DNA of 64,000 nt from positions 1 to 64,000 of the forward strand of contig CALFBP010000018.1 of assembly GCA_937951625.1 (NCBI GenBank), in the 5' to 3' direction. The notes below the pieces were generated by a model that saw only the letters and a program-made list of their open reading frames with translations, made no database searches and had not been told where the DNA came from. Source of the stretch: an uncultured Thermoguttaceae bacterium. GTDB lineage: Bacteria; Planctomycetota; Planctomycetia; Pirellulales; Thermoguttaceae. Positions 14,941-21,561 of this stretch are shown here, in pieces. Position 1 is the first letter of the stretch; each line of letters starts with the position of its first letter. Made by a program: the position numbers and the translations under genes.

Positions 14941-15052
14941 CGCGCCCTCAAACGACAAACCAAACGTAGGACGTGTTTCAGGCCTTTTGGGCCTGCGTGG
15001 CCAATAACACTCCGGCGTTTTTGAACACAATGCCCACAGATCGAGGTTGCAA

Positions 15053-15982
15053 ATGAATAACATAAAGGTCCATCCATCTGCGACACGCATCGGTTGGATT
15101 GGCACGGGCGTGATGGGACGGAGCATGTGCGGCCACCTGATGGCGAAGGGGTATCAGACGACGGTCTATAATCGAACGAAAACCAAGGCCGAGGGGTTGC
15201 TCGCCCAGGGGGCGCGTTGGGCCGACAGCCCCCGCGCCGTGGCCGAAGCCTCGGACGTGGTGTTCACCATGGTGGGCTATCCGGCCGACGTCCGCGAGGT
15301 GATTCTTGGGCCAAATGGTGTCCTTGTCGGGGCCAAGCCGGGGACGATCCTCGTCGATATGACCACCAGTCAACCCAGCCTGGCTGTCGAAATCGCCCAG
15401 GCCGCCAAAGCCCGAGGAGTTCACGCTGTCGATGCCCCCGTCTCCGGCGGCGACGTTGGGGCCCGAGAAGCAAGGCTTTCGATCATGGTGGGCGGCGAGG
15501 AGCAGGTCTTTCATGCCCTCATGCCGTGCTTCGAGGCGATGGGTAAGACCATCGTCCACCACGGTGGGCCCGGCGCTGGCCAACACGCCAAAATGGTCAA
15601 TCAGGTGGCGATCGCCGGCACGATGATCGGCGTTTGTGAGAGTCTCCTGTATGGCTATCGTGCGGGGCTGGACCTCGATAAGGTCCTTCAATCCATCGCT
15701 TCAGGGGCGGCGGGGAGCTGGAGCCTCTCCAATCTGGGGCCCCGCATTCTCGCAAACCGTTTTGAACCTGGATTTTTCGTCGAGCACTTCATCAAAGACA
15801 TGGGCATCGCCTTGGAAGAATCCCGGCGGATGGGGCTGGCGATGCCGGGACTTGCTCTCGTCCAACAACTCTATTTGTCCCTGGCCGCCCTCGGTCATGC
15901 GCGAGACGGCACTCATGCCCTGCTGTTGGCCCTGGCTAAAATGTCCGGGATTGATTGGATGTCAAGAACGCACAAAAAATGA
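15053..15982 (+). CDS. 3-hydroxyisobutyrate-dehydrogenase-type NAD(P)-dependent oxidoreductase (309 aa)
   Basis: ATG at 15053 with GAGG 7 bases before it. The N-terminal Rossmann motif is GWIGTGVMG (residues 14-22), followed by substrate signature '[11 protein letters not shown]' (~127-137) and catalytic Lys180 in '[11 protein letters not shown]'. This fixes the beta-hydroxyacid dehydrogenase family (HIBADH, tartronate semialdehyde reductase, GlyR1-type). The exact substrate cannot be read; Asn/Arg after the second strand ('[12 protein letters not shown]') favours NADP. Length is typical. The gene stands alone. Confidence 0.9.
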
Positions 15983-16360: not shown

Positions 16361-17404
16361 CTAACGCCTAGAATCGCCGCGACTGGCCAGTTGCAGCGCC
16401 CGGCTCAAAGCCGTTAGCAGAAATCGGTCTTCTGGATCGGCGGAACCTGGGACATGAACGTATTGGCCCGTGCGGATCAATAGGGGCAAGATGGGAACTG
16501 GCCGGGGTAAACGGTAAGACACCCAGTCCGCGGTACTCCGGCCTGGCAGATAGGGGTGCAATAACAGCGGACGTTGATTTTCACTCGTCGCGAGATATTT
16601 GCTCGCCAACTGCGCGAGACATTCCCGCTCGGCGCCTGTCGTGACGCCGTGGCCAATCAGCACAGCCCCCCTCGCCGGCTGGAGCGGCGGGCGCTGAAGA
16701 TACGCCGGAACCGTCAAGAGGATGCCGTCGCGTGGTCCCGGCATCGATCCTTCGGTCGGCCGCGTTTCGGCGCTGCCCGCCGGCTCATCCGCGACCACCA
16801 CAATCTGATCGCAACCGGCGAACCAATCCACGAGGAGCTGGCACGAATCGACGGCGGCACTGACTTCTGGCATGAGCGGCTGTTTGCGGCCCCGTTCCCA
16901 GCGATCCAAATAGCCCGAGTTCCAGCGAGGGTCACGTCGGATGTCCGCCTCGACCTCTAGCGGCTCCGCGGGCCGGTCCTTACACCGCATCGTTCCCCAG
17001 CATTGGCCCAGGTGGTTGTGCTCATGTTCCCAAACTTCGACGCCGACCTGGTCGAGCAGCGGAATCATCCAACCCATGCAATGGTCGCAATAATCCTCGT
17101 CGGCGTTGCAATCCTGGGCGATGAGAAAGCCCTTGCTTGGGCAACGGCGCATGTCCCAGCGGAGCACATTCCGCGCTTCGTCCAAGGTGAAGGTCCAATC
17201 ACAGGCCTCGTCCTGGCCGGTTTTCACCCATGTGTGATAAAGCCCCGCCAGGCCGGCCTTTCGCCCCGCATCAAGGTAATGTCGCTGACTTTCGCCGCCG
17301 ATGGCCTCGGCCCAGAGCCGGGCCACCGCCTCCTGTCCCCAGCGGCGACGAAAGAAATGGAACGTCCATTCGTACCAACCGCAAAAGTCGTGGCAGCCGA
17401 GCAT
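16361..17404 (-). CDS. Cys-rich protein related to its neighbour, with extra C-terminal domain (347 aa)
   Basis: ATG at 17404, no clear ribosome-binding site, 53 bases after the upstream paralogue. The N-terminal ~150 residues follow the same plan as the 139-aa neighbour: aromatic 'FHFFRRRWGQEAVARLW', a strand block, 'RWDMRRCPSKGFL', 'DYCDHCMGW' and a final Cys in 'LGQCWGTM'. This CP...CxHC...C layout is reminiscent of the L-2-amino-thiazoline-4-carboxylic-acid-hydrolase-like family, but I cannot confirm it. Residues ~175-347 are an additional domain containing 'CDQIVVVADEPAG' and 'ILLTVPAYLQRP' that I do not recognise. It is the last gene of the aldolase operon. Confidence 0.7.
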   Translation of the reverse strand: MLGCHDFCGWYEWTFHFFRRRWGQEAVARLWAEAIGGESQRHYLDAGRKAGLAGLYHTWVKTGQDEACDWTFTLDEARNVLRWDMRRCPSKGFLIAQDCNADEDYCDHCMGWMIPLLDQVGVEVWEHEHNHLGQCWGTMRCKDRPAEPLEVEADIRRDPRWNSGYLDRWERGRKQPLMPEVSAAVDSCQLLVDWFAGCDQIVVVADEPAGSAETRPTEGSMPGPRDGILLTVPAYLQRPPLQPARGAVLIGHGVTTGAERECLAQLASKYLATSENQRPLLLHPYLPGRSTADWVSYRLPRPVPILPLLIRTGQYVHVPGSADPEDRFLLTALSRALQLASRGDSRR

Positions 17405-17457
17405 GGGAGGTTACAGGGTTTGGAAGACCAATGTCGAGGGGCCGTGGCCATGAACGG

Positions 17458-17877
17458 CTACTTTGTTTTCGGAACGAACCGCTGGCGGCACGCTCCCATG
17501 CCGCCGGCCCGCTGGAAATCCATGTGGGCCAATTCGGCCATGGCGCCACAGGTGTGGTCGCAGTGCTCGCAGAAATAGGGAACGATGTCCCGGCCGTGGT
17601 TTCGCAGGTGTCGGATCGCCGGACAAACGCGGACGATCAATTCCACCGCGTTTTCTTCGAAGATCACGTCGATCTCCGCCGCAGGCTCCAGGGCGAAATA
17701 GGCCCGCCAGTCCTCGGCGACGGCCTTCAACCCGCCCGATTTCCACGCCTCGATGCGGCCGCGATAGTACTCCGTAGCCAGCGACCGCCAGTATTCCACG
17801 AGGGCCGCTTTGCCGTAGCGGTCGTGCAGGTGCCGGAAGATGGCGTTGGCGGCGAAGTAGAAATCAGGCGCCGACAC
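17458..17877 (-). CDS. Cys-rich protein with CP...CEHC...C motif (139 aa)
   Basis: GTG start at 17877, overlapping the 3' end of the aldolase gene by 14 bases (GTGTCGGCGCCTGA), so translation is probably coupled. An N-terminal helical part (FRHLHDRYGKAALVEYWRSL) leads to a strand 'VELIVRVCPAIRHL', then 'PYFCEHCDHTCGAMAEL' and a last Cys in 'GMGACRQRF'. The cysteine pattern and the 'CPAI..L' phrase resemble the L-2-amino-thiazoline-4-carboxylic-acid-hydrolase-like family; that assignment is tentative. Cys and His spacing would suit metal binding or thiol chemistry. It is a clear divergent paralogue of the next gene. Confidence 0.75.
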   Translation of the reverse strand: MSAPDFYFAANAIFRHLHDRYGKAALVEYWRSLATEYYRGRIEAWKSGGLKAVAEDWRAYFALEPAAEIDVIFEENAVELIVRVCPAIRHLRNHGRDIVPYFCEHCDHTCGAMAELAHMDFQRAGGMGACRQRFVPKTK

Positions 17878-18661
17878 GCGCGTCTTGCTCCTTAAATGCT
17901 TGGGCGATGCGTCCGAAATACTCCGTCAAGGCGAGGACGTCGGCGCCCACGTTGATCATTTGGGCCCCGGCCGCTATCTTCCGCGGCATGCTCTCCATCG
18001 TGGCGACAGCGGCGGCGAACTTGCCGTGACGCCGCGCGGCCTCGATCACTTGCCGTTCGGCCTCAACTACCCGCGGATCGTCGAAACAGCCGATGCAGCC
18101 GATGGCGTGGCTGAAATCCCCGGGACCGAACAAAAGGATGTCGATTCCGGGGACTTTGGCGATTTCGTCCAACTCTGCCAGCGGTTCGGGGTCTTCGATC
18201 TGGACGATCACGAAGCGTTCCTCATTCGCCTGCCGCACGTACTCAGCGGCGGGGATAGTGCAGTAGGCGCCGTCGGCGTTGCCGCCATCCAATGGGCGGC
18301 GTCCGATGGGGTGAAACCGCGTTTGCCAGGCGATTTTTCGGGCGTCGTCGGCGCTCATCACGTGTGGGACCATGATTCCCGTCGCGTCCATCTCCAGCGG
18401 ATAGACCAGGTCGCTGTAGCTCCCGCGGGCCACCCGGACGACGGTATCCACGTCATGGACCTTGGCCGCCCTGATTTGATTTTCAATTTCCCGAAGGTCA
18501 TTGGGGATGTGCTCCAAATCGAGCCAGAGGCAATCCACGCCGCTGGCTGCCGCAATCTCGGCCACCCGCGGGTCTCCCAAGTTGAGCTTCACGCACCCAG
18601 CGATCTTACCCGCCCGCAACTTCTCCAGCACGCGACTGCGACGCATCCGCGCCATGTACAT
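17864..18661 (-). CDS. HpcH/HpaI-family aldolase (265 aa)
   Basis: Two in-frame starts are possible: ATG 18661 with AGGAG only 3 bases away, or ATG 18655 (MARMRR) with 9-base spacing, which I think more likely in practice. Family marks are 'VDCLWLDLEHIP' (metal/substrate region), 'GIMVPHVMSADDARK', 'HPIGRRPLDGGNADGAY', 'VIVQIEDPEPL' with the acidic metal ligand, and 'GPGDFSHAIG'. The family includes 2,4-dihydroxyhept-2-ene-1,7-dioate and 2-keto-3-deoxy-sugar-acid aldolases that form or cleave pyruvate-type aldols with a divalent metal. The substrate here is not known. It is the first gene of a three-gene minus-strand operon with the Cys-rich paralogues. Confidence 0.9.
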   Translation of the reverse strand: MYMARMRRSRVLEKLRAGKIAGCVKLNLGDPRVAEIAAASGVDCLWLDLEHIPNDLREIENQIRAAKVHDVDTVVRVARGSYSDLVYPLEMDATGIMVPHVMSADDARKIAWQTRFHPIGRRPLDGGNADGAYCTIPAAEYVRQANEERFVIVQIEDPEPLAELDEIAKVPGIDILLFGPGDFSHAIGCIGCFDDPRVVEAERQVIEAARRHGKFAAAVATMESMPRKIAAGAQMINVGADVLALTEYFGRIAQAFKEQDARVGA

Positions 18662-18912
18662 TTTCTCCTGAATCGAGGTAAGGCGTCCGGGCAGCCGATT
18701 GCCACCTCATGATGCCTTCGGCATAATGCGATGCTTGAGTTTCCTACGCTCCGCGAGCGAGAGCGACATGCAGCCATCGGAGACCGGTCGCGGTAGGCCG
18801 TGGCGTCGTGTTCGCACGGTTGGGTTCCTCAGGGCTGGTGTGCCTCGCCTTTGCGGAGAATCCCGAACAGCAAATAGACACCAAGCCCAGATTGATTGTC
18901 AAGGAGTATCCC

Positions 18913-19923
18913 GTGCGCCATCGCGTGCTGGTCATCGGCGTCGGATCCATCGGAGAACGTCATTTGCGGTGTTTTCAAGCGACAGGCCGGGCCGACATGG
19001 CTTTGGTCGAAATTCGGGAGCCTGTGCGTCGCGCGGTGGCCGAACGTTACGGCATCCAGCACGCCTTCGCCGATCTGGAATCCGCGCTGGCGGATCGTTT
19101 CGATGCCGCCGTGATCGCCACGCCAGCGCCGCTGCATGTGGCGATGGCGACCCGCTTCGTGGAGTCCGGTGTTCATGTCTTGATCGAGAAACCGTTGAGC
19201 GTCTGTCTGGACGGGATCGAGGCCCTTCGCGAAGCGGTGCAGCGCCGTGGCGTTATCGCCGCCGTAGCATATGTCTACCGTTGCAACCCCTTGTTGGTCG
19301 GCGTGCGCCAAGCGATCCTCGGCGGACGTATTGGACGACCGGTCGAACTCGTTGCGGTTGCTGGACAGCACTTTCCGTTCTATCGTCCCCAATACCGCGA
19401 AATCTACTATGCGGACCGCGCGACGGGCGGCGGGGCGATTCAGGACGCCCTTACCCACCTCGTCAACGCTGGCGAGTGGCTGGTCGGCAAGGTCGATTGC
19501 CTGGTGGCCGACGCAGCCCACCAAGTGCTCGACGGCGTGAACGTCGAGGACACGGTGCACCTCTTAGCTCGCCATGGCCAGGTGATGGCCTGCTACAGCT
19601 TGAATCAATACCAAGCCCCGAACGAGGTGACGATCACGGTCACGGGTACTTCGGGCACGGTTCGCTGCGAGCTTCACCAGCACCGCTGGCGCTGGATCCA
19701 GAAACCTGATGAACCATGGCACGACGAGTCGATTGCCCCGTTGGAACGCGACACGTTGTTCATCGCCCAAGCCCATGCCTTTCTCGACGCCGTAGAAGGT
19801 CGGGCAAGCGTGCCGTGTTCCTTAGAAGAAGGCATCCAGACGTTGAAAGTCAACCTCGCTGCGTTGGCGAGTGTGGAAAGCCGGTCCTGGAAGAAAATCG
19901 ACGACTTCTCCGTGATGGCGTAG
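18913..19923 (+). CDS. Gfo/Idh/MocA-family oxidoreductase (336 aa)
   Basis: I choose GTG 18913 because AAGGAG lies 7 bases upstream and the product then begins right at the Rossmann strand. Motifs: GVGSIGERH (residues 9-17), 'EKPLS' with the conserved Lys (92-96), 'AYVYRCNPL' and 'GGGAIQDALTHLVNAGEWL', which carries the His/Asp-type active-site region. It oxidises or epimerises a sugar or inositol-like substrate with NAD(P). It is divergent from the aldolase (250 bases between starts) and upstream of the class-III aminotransferase, so these genes may serve one sugar or amino-sugar route. That link is inference from position. Confidence 0.88.
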   Translation: MRHRVLVIGVGSIGERHLRCFQATGRADMALVEIREPVRRAVAERYGIQHAFADLESALADRFDAAVIATPAPLHVAMATRFVESGVHVLIEKPLSVCLDGIEALREAVQRRGVIAAVAYVYRCNPLLVGVRQAILGGRIGRPVELVAVAGQHFPFYRPQYREIYYADRATGGGAIQDALTHLVNAGEWLVGKVDCLVADAAHQVLDGVNVEDTVHLLARHGQVMACYSLNQYQAPNEVTITVTGTSGTVRCELHQHRWRWIQKPDEPWHDESIAPLERDTLFIAQAHAFLDAVEGRASVPCSLEEGIQTLKVNLAALASVESRSWKKIDDFSVMA

Positions 19924-20127: not shown

Positions 20128-21561
20128 ATGACGGGCAGGCCTCAGGTGAATTCTTCCGAATGCCGACTAGCCTCGCTCTTGGGTCGCAATGGTCGCGAGA
20201 TCATGACCGCCGTCGAGGCAGCCCAGCGCTTTTTGCGGGAACGCGACGTGGGCGAACTTTTGGAGGCGGTTGGGCAGCGCCTCTGTCAGATTCCCGCGGC
20301 CGCGCATCTGGACAAGCGTTTTTTCCAGGCGTCGTATGGGGGTGGCGTTGGCCAGACGCCCGATGATTTATTGACCGGTCGCGGCGTGTTCTACGTCAGC
20401 GAGCAAGGCAAGCTGTATTTGGACTGCACGGCCGGGCACTATCAGATGACGTGGGGATACAACCACCCGGACCTCAACGCGCTGGTCCAGCAGGCGATCG
20501 AAGCGGGCATCGTCTGGGACGATCACAGCAACATCCCCGGCGCCAGCGTCAAGCGTCTGGCCGAGCGCTTGGTGGCAGCGGCCAACGACGTGGAGTCCCC
20601 CAGTGAGGAGCTTCTGGACGACTCCAAGGCCCTGAATACGGTACTTTTGGGCATTTGCACGGGCTCGGTGGCGGTGAATGCGGCTTTGAAGCTCGCGTTG
20701 GCGCATCATGGGTCGGTGCGGCTGGATACGGAACCCGTGGTGATCGCATTGGCGGGGAACTACCACGGCACCGATTTTCTCGCCCAAAGGCTTCGCGGCA
20801 TGTGGCAAGAGTTATTCCAGAATCTCCAAGTGGTCGAGGTGGAGCCGAACGATCTTACGGGGCTGCGCAAGGCGTTCGCGTTGCACCGCGGTCGGGTGGC
20901 CGCGATGTTCTGTGAGCTGGTCTTAATGAATCGCGAAGCGATTCTGTTGGACGAGGACTTCGTGGGCGAGGCCCGCACCCGCTGCGACGAGGCCGACGCC
21001 TGCCTGGTCATTGACGAGATCCAAAGCGGGTTTTGGTATCCGCAGTTTTTTCTCTACCACCAATACGGGATCATGCCCGACATTCTCGTCATTGGCAAAG
21101 GCATGACGGCGGGTTTGCATCCGCTGTCGGCCGTGGTCTATCGCCGTCAATATGACCGCTTGGCGCAATACGACGTGATCAGCACCAACGGCAATGCCCC
21201 ATTGGCGGCGGTCGCTGGCCTGGGGTGCATGGACCTCATCGAGCGAGAAACCACACACGTCGCGGCATTGAATCGCCATTTTTTCGACCGACTTCAGGAA
21301 CTGCCTCAGGCTTGGCCCTCGCGGGTCGCGGCGATCCACGGACACGGACTCTTGGCCGGGGTGAAGTTCCACCGAGTGGAAGACGCGTTGGAGGCCCATC
21401 GCCGCCTGCTGCACCGCGGACTTTGGACGAGGGTCCACGCTTATCACGAAGGCCATAGCACGATCCTTACCAAACTGGCCTTGGCGGCCGATCATCGGGT
21501 GGCCGATTTCGTCGTCGACGCCTTTCACCAGGTCCTTCGGGAGATGGACGCCGGCAATTGA
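20128..21561 (+). CDS. Class-III pyridoxal-phosphate aminotransferase (477 aa)
   Basis: ATG at 20128 or, 25 codons later, 20203; neither has a strong ribosome-binding site, and 20203 fits the family length better. PLP motifs are clear: 'CTGSVAVNAALKLA' (phosphate-binding, ~178-191), 'VIDEIQSGFW' (Asp296) and the Schiff-base Lys324 in 'VIGKGMTAGLHPLSAV'. Late elements 'STNGNAPLAAVAGL' and 'HGLLAGVKF' complete the fold. Class III covers omega-amino-acid, glutamate-semialdehyde and sugar-linked aminotransferases; the substrate is not predictable. 'CTAGHYQMTWGYNHPDL' in the N-terminal part is the usual substrate-site loop. Confidence 0.9.
   Translation: MTGRPQVNSSECRLASLLGRNGREIMTAVEAAQRFLRERDVGELLEAVGQRLCQIPAAAHLDKRFFQASYGGGVGQTPDDLLTGRGVFYVSEQGKLYLDCTAGHYQMTWGYNHPDLNALVQQAIEAGIVWDDHSNIPGASVKRLAERLVAAANDVESPSEELLDDSKALNTVLLGICTGSVAVNAALKLALAHHGSVRLDTEPVVIALAGNYHGTDFLAQRLRGMWQELFQNLQVVEVEPNDLTGLRKAFALHRGRVAAMFCELVLMNREAILLDEDFVGEARTRCDEADACLVIDEIQSGFWYPQFFLYHQYGIMPDILVIGKGMTAGLHPLSAVVYRRQYDRLAQYDVISTNGNAPLAAVAGLGCMDLIERETTHVAALNRHFFDRLQELPQAWPSRVAAIHGHGLLAGVKFHRVEDALEAHRRLLHRGLWTRVHAYHEGHSTILTKLALAADHRVADFVVDAFHQVLREMDAGN

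Follow-up and report, generated by a model that had tools for sequence, protein, structure and literature searches.

The topology that our models assign to the gene pair reported here has been described for V4R domains and Bet3, in a study that also proposes a V4R ancestry for Bet3 (PMC2253512). In the V4R domain of DmpR, the zinc ligands are Cys151, Glu172, Cys177 and Cys185 (PMC7264223). We compare these systems with two adjacent genes, A and B, from an uncultured Thermoguttaceae bacterium (contig CALFBP010000018.1, positions 1 to 64,000; this whole 64,000-nucleotide stretch is the window). The two genes form a module that spans about 19 bacterial phyla; its carriers include Clostridia from the gut as well as Verrucomicrobiota and Planctomycetota from the environment. 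Pfam and NCBIfam scans name neither A nor B, in agreement with their description as uncharacterized in the original prediction. The genes of the locus are as follows.

17458..17877, minus strand: gene A, 139 aa; predicted V4R/Bet3-like domain carrying the C-P, C-x-H-C and C elements; A subunit of type I
16361-17404, minus strand: gene B, whole, 347 aa
16970..17404, minus strand: N-terminal domain of B, residues 1-145; predicted V4R/Bet3-like; CPS - YCxHC - HEHNH-GQC; paralogue of A
16361..16969, minus strand: C-terminal extension of B, ~200 aa plus stop; for the full-length homologue L068, a CstII/GT42-MptE-like fold is predicted
17864..18661, minus strand: HpcH/HpaI aldolase of 265 aa, the gene immediately upstream of A; PF03328 E 1.6e-27
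18808..19923, plus strand: GFO/IDH/MocA oxidoreductase, divergent from the aldolase
15047..15982, plus strand, convergent with B: dehydrogenase of the GarR/GlxR family, tartronate-semialdehyde-reductase-like; TIGR01505 E 6e-81, under the cut-off of that model

Gene A begins with GTG, and its two closest homologues (L050 and L051, 67-70% identity) have ATG at the same residue (MSAPDFYF). The plan of A is an aromatic helix FYFAANAIFRHLHDRYG, followed by CPAI, FCEHC and GACRQ; the plan of B is an aromatic helix WYEWTFHFFRRRWG, followed by CPSK, YCDHC and GQCW. The A and B genes are separated by 53 nt, and A shares 14 nt with the reading frame of the aldolase. The aldolase belongs to PF03328 (96.7 bits, cut-off 25), and its best NCBIfam matches are HpaI and GarL, both under their equivalog cut-offs. 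Promoter and terminator scans found matches at chance level only. The original prediction had presented A and B as adjacent paralogues with the order aromatic helix - CP - CxHC - C, an extra domain of ~200 residues in B and a link to an HpcH/HpaI aldolase; the reading frames, the family profiles and the recurrence of the aldolase with the pair elsewhere bear out each of these points. The aldolase-A-B block is also flanked by a class III aminotransferase gene (20128-21561) and the tartronate-semialdehyde-reductase-like gene. A few further loci (L097, L104) also have a class III aminotransferase close to the pair, none of them a close homologue of the window's.

We assembled the locus set from a protein search and one gapped DNA pattern scan of 84,980 species. 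The pattern scan yielded at least 119 loci, and the combined non-redundant set holds at least 128. One pattern locus, L094, is a chance match and was rejected; it is the sole pattern locus lacking a homologue among the matches listed. The pattern requires CP(S), YCxHC and one Gly in B, so the conservation of B at these positions is partly built in for the at least 119 pattern loci; gene A lies outside the pattern. About 19 phyla are represented among the loci listed, with names taken from record titles: Planctomycetota, Verrucomicrobiota, Kiritimatiellaeota, Lentisphaerae, Armatimonadota, Zipacnadia, Bacillota, Actinomycetota, Omnitrophota, Hydrogenedentota, Latescibacterota, WS1, Chloroflexi, Calditrichia, Nitrospinota, Acidobacteria, Bacteroidota, Spirochaetes and Aerophobetes. 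Single-protein and profile searches of 392 Planctomycetota genomes found the pair in the window's genome and a few others only; of 101 genomes from the family to which the window belongs, about a dozen carry it, and there are weak single matches besides.

A direct BLASTP comparison of A and B gives a weak match (23% identity, E 5e-4, single comparison). Alignment of the family profiles with hhalign raises this to 99% and E 3e-18 across 139 columns (E 7e-19 with about 100 sequences in each profile), and the two families were co-aligned on the B-A fusion L126. At the level of sequence profiles, the paralogy of A and B is beyond doubt. Their wider kinship is more distant. The original prediction had placed both proteins near the amino-thiazoline-carboxylate hydrolases (PF14196, ATC_hydrolase), a placement that holds in part for A: the A profile aligns to PF14196 at 91% and E 1e-6 over 86 columns that include the three Cys positions, and matches to PF14196 occur in 8 of 15 A homologues, all below its curated cut-off of 28.1 bits (best E 9e-4; the L002 A protein reaches 18.5 bits). 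For B, profile-profile comparison with PF14196 found nothing, and the window's own A and B proteins do not match it. By these comparisons, A is a distant relative of PF14196 and neither protein belongs to that family. Pfam scans at E<=1 gave no match to V4R (PF02830), hhalign gave 5% or less, and a search of PDB chains by sequence with A, B and the extension found no significant match. PF14196 itself is weakly linked to V4R (hhalign 63%, E 7e-5).

We next consider the predicted folds. The AlphaFold model of the L126 B-A fusion has a pLDDT of 93.7 and a pTM of 0.89, and that of the L068 B protein has a pLDDT of 81.6. Each A or B domain is modeled with nine elements in the order alpha3-beta2-alpha2-beta2, five helices and a four-stranded antiparallel sheet, which is the V4R/TRAPP-Bet3 topology. 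The A and B models share it, excluding the possibility that the two proteins have unrelated predicted folds. The top natural Foldseek matches to the A/B domain are Bet3, Trs31, Trs33, MopR and PoxR, with probabilities up to 1.00, weak E values of 6.5e-3 to 0.1 and TM scores of about 0.5 by target length; a Thorarchaeota TRAPPC3, BcsD and H-NOX are also matched. Because the direct profile link to V4R is not significant, kinship to V4R rests on the fold together with the weak PF14196-V4R link. We therefore speak of a V4R/Bet3-like fold and not of V4R members: as modeled, A and B have the fold and are outside the family, since by sequence only A reaches PF14196, which in turn weakly reaches V4R.

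The conserved residues suggest a possible metal site. Cys85, Cys104, His106, Cys107 and Cys133 (alignment numbering) are invariant in all 17 B proteins from the protein search. In type I loci (the window, Verrucomicrobiota, Phycisphaerales, Armatimonadota and others), the Cys4/His set is kept in both subunits; B carries HEHNH-GQCW, and A, which is independent of the search pattern, keeps CP, C-x-H-C and C. In type II loci, C-x-H-C is lost from A and the full set is kept in B. Glu66 of B and Glu61 of A, both outside the search pattern, are about 99% conserved. Compared by sequence position, the Cys/His set lies at places similar to the V4R zinc site (three Cys plus Glu/His). The metal binding raised in the original prediction is plausible, as a prediction from the conserved set, and we consider it likely that A:B binds a metal. 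By analogy with the MopR, PoxR and DmpR sensor domains, that metal would most likely be zinc. The thiol chemistry also suggested there finds no support, as these nearest structural neighbors with a comparable Cys set use their cysteines for zinc.

Several observations bear on whether A and B act as a unit. Gene A lies directly before B in 101 of the 128 non-redundant loci listed, and single-frame fusions occur in 12, of which 11 are B-A (mostly gut Clostridia, one Zipacnadia) and one is A-B (L144, Hydrogenedentota). In another 13 of the 128, B has no detected A, several of these at the end of the available stretch. Among the loci listed, the two frames overlap by 4 nt in 64 pairs, 1 nt in 15 and 7 nt in 6, with some starts mis-called. 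Mirror-tree distances of A and B correlate with r 0.925 over 99 pairs, where shuffles reach at most 0.07, uncorrected for the kinship of the species. Fusion in both orders and overlapping genes suggest a heterodimer, and A:B is very likely one in solution. In one Pirellulales MAG (CSMAG_3026; L062/L123, 3351-3878), an in-frame deletion appears to have joined the two paralogues, such that about 35 residues of A run into B near residue 12; this may reflect either genuine recombination or an error of assembly.

We then quantified the gene neighborhood. Within 4.5 kb of the 128 loci listed, DHDPS-family genes are found at 35 loci, HpcH genes at 19 and both at 1, for a union of 53 (41%). The window's 4.59-Mb genome has only two DHDPS and two HpcH genes over cut-off, and from these four genes an aldolase is expected near a locus by chance in about 0.9% of cases. 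The two aldolase families co-occur once where about five co-occurrences are expected (p 0.013; within type I, p 0.12, not significant). Other families within 4.5 kb are SDR (24 of the 128), NanM-type kelch (16), BNR-type (15), ceramidase-like (13), GFO/IDH/MocA (11) and NagA-like (7). Some of the GFO/IDH/MocA loci also have an HpcH aldolase and an SDR (L051, L180). A scan of 150 flanking genes gave DHDPS 23, SSF symporter 9, NANM 9, SDR 7, HpcH 6 and MFS 5, and the classical sugar-acid dehydratase families are absent from the 25 commonest families among these 150 immediate neighbors. Free variation of the neighbors therefore holds in part: they do differ between loci, but pyruvate aldolases occur far more often than by chance, and A and B themselves stay together almost without exception. 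An aldolase is missing from the available stretch of 75 of the 128 loci listed, many of which are contig ends or 8-kb blocks; because over half of the loci show none nearby, the pair may also work outside an aldolase context. Two recurring neighbors were seen in passing. A GFO/IDH/MocA subtype with a GNGHPYSWSA motif recurs near the pair at 5 loci (for example L139, L051 and L180), beside SDR and other GFO genes, and a ~500-aa protein lacking a Pfam match lies beside or near the pair in several Opitutaceae (L099, L142, L082, L070; cluster c7).

The layout in the window, an HpaI/GarL-like aldolase and a tartronate-semialdehyde-reductase-like gene beyond B, would recall hexarate catabolism, from what is known of these families. 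Overall, the neighborhood moderately favors a role for A:B in a sugar-acid pathway, and the aldolase neighbors make its function testable. The best explanation as a whole, to which we give somewhat less than even confidence, is that A and B together make up an obligate heterodimer, with a V4R/TRAPP-Bet3-type domain in each subunit, in which the Cys4/His set (always in B and, in the window's subfamily, also in A) would probably hold the metal. The heterodimer would bind a sugar acid of the 2-keto-3-deoxy or nonulosonate type and most likely process it through a metal-dependent hydrolysis or hydro-lyase step, and the neighboring pyruvate aldolase, which in the window is the HpcH/HpaI aldolase, would cleave that sugar acid. 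For the catalytic step, the balance between catalysis on one side and sensing or scaffolding on the other is about even, perhaps leaning slightly toward catalysis, and the fact that most characterized V4R/Bet3-fold proteins are sensors or scaffolds argues against it.

The alternative that survives best, though we hold it only tentatively, is that A:B is a non-catalytic ligand-binding heterodimer, sensory or allosteric, that reports or buffers a sugar acid, with a regulatory effect on the neighboring aldolase or transporter. It draws on the fold neighbors of known function, such as the V4R domains of DmpR and MopR, on the absence of the catalytic-type Cys from type II A and on the SSF and MFS transporters that are common beside the pair. 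However, we saw no output domain (DNA-binding, kinase or ATPase) fused to the pair or consistently next to it, and the near-complete conservation of Glu66 of B and Glu61 of A is a better fit to an active site.

The C-terminal extension of B bears on a second, rather unlikely alternative, in which the pair is specific to the metabolism of sialic-acid-like nonulosonates, acts on a nonulosonic acid, and carries the extension as a relic of a CMP-nonulosonate transferase. Extensions of about 180-250 residues occur in seven B proteins among the loci listed, all from Planctomycetota. The L068 extension model matches the GT42 fold of the CstII sialyltransferase (Foldseek E 5.5e-4, probability 1.00), which with the human sialyltransferases is its top match, and archaeal MptE-type HPPK is matched as well. 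NanM-type kelch and NagA-like deacetylase genes nearby fit this alternative too, as do the frequent SSF symporters, BNR-type proteins and lyases of the DHDPS family, whose superfamily includes NanA. Against it, kelch and BNR proteins also serve other roles, and none of the DHDPS neighbors reaches an NCBIfam equivalog cut-off, that of NanA included, most scoring higher for dapA. A PF06002 search of 199 Planctomycetota genomes gave no match, but neither did its controls, so it says nothing either way; for the NeuB family, the genome of the window yields no more than a weak, partial match. By sequence, the extension has no significant match in Pfam or among PDB chains, and its alignment to an MptE-like profile is co-linear and not significant. 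In the window's copy, ADEPAGS replaces GRGPSA and the domain stops before the AGIDLY segment (alignment A7); because the G-x-GPS motif and the domain end are missing, this extension is probably not an active transferase.

It is improbable that the pair is unrelated to the aldolase and that A and B alone make up the unit. The wide differences among neighbors and the many loci showing no aldolase would suit such an accident, but an aldolase at 53 of 128 loci against about 1% expected, the involvement of two unrelated and nearly mutually exclusive aldolase superfamilies, and the overlap of aldolase and A in the window argue against it. Slightly less probable still is that A:B belongs to the L-2-amino-thiazoline-4-carboxylate hydrolases and hydrolyzes a cyclic amidine or thiazoline, since the sub-threshold PF14196 matches of A homologues and the A profile alignment are offset by the absence of any match for B and the window proteins and of cysteine- or carbamoyl-hydrolyzing genes among the common neighbor families. 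A thiol/cysteine pathway was dropped on the same grounds.

Returning to the obligate, probably metal-binding heterodimer in sugar-acid catabolism, we compare it with the known systems. PF14196 shares with A a distant homology and the C...C...C plan, but A falls below its curated cut-off, B has no detectable kinship to it, and A and B are always paired. CstII (GT42) and MptE-like proteins resemble the L068 extension by eye in its VLGRGPS and PTSG...AGIDLY segments, whereas the extension is limited to Planctomycetota members, has no significant sequence match and, in the window, is truncated and lacks the first motif. V4R (PF02830; DmpR, MopR, PoxR) shares the predicted topology and a Cys-rich set in the second half of the domain, the same half that holds the three Cys and one Glu of the DmpR zinc site (PMC7264223). 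Unlike V4R, A and B would form a stand-alone paralogous heterodimer beside metabolic genes, with no fused regulator domains and no profile match, and they have an additional CPS motif and HEHNH segment. The TRAPP pairs Bet3-Trs31 and Bet3-Trs33 include the best Foldseek matches and, as proposed for A and B, consist of small paralogues that adopt one fold and partner each other, whereas A and B are bacterial, Cys/His-rich and located in catabolic neighborhoods, with no link to vesicle tethering found. The resemblance of the paired A and B paralogues to Bet3-Trs pairing in fold and size bears on the origin of V4R-type heterodimers. More speculatively, and with a low probability, A:B could be an undescribed, phylum-spanning bacterial enzyme, an obligate Bet3/V4R-type heterodimer with a Cys/His metal site that supplies a missing hydro-lyase, deacylase or amidino-hydrolase reaction in the breakdown of nonulosonates or 2-keto-3-deoxy sugar acids, and whose B subunit gained a CstII-like domain in Planctomycetota. 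If so, the Bet3-Trs31/33 pairing would have a counterpart in bacteria that is catalytic and depends on a metal.
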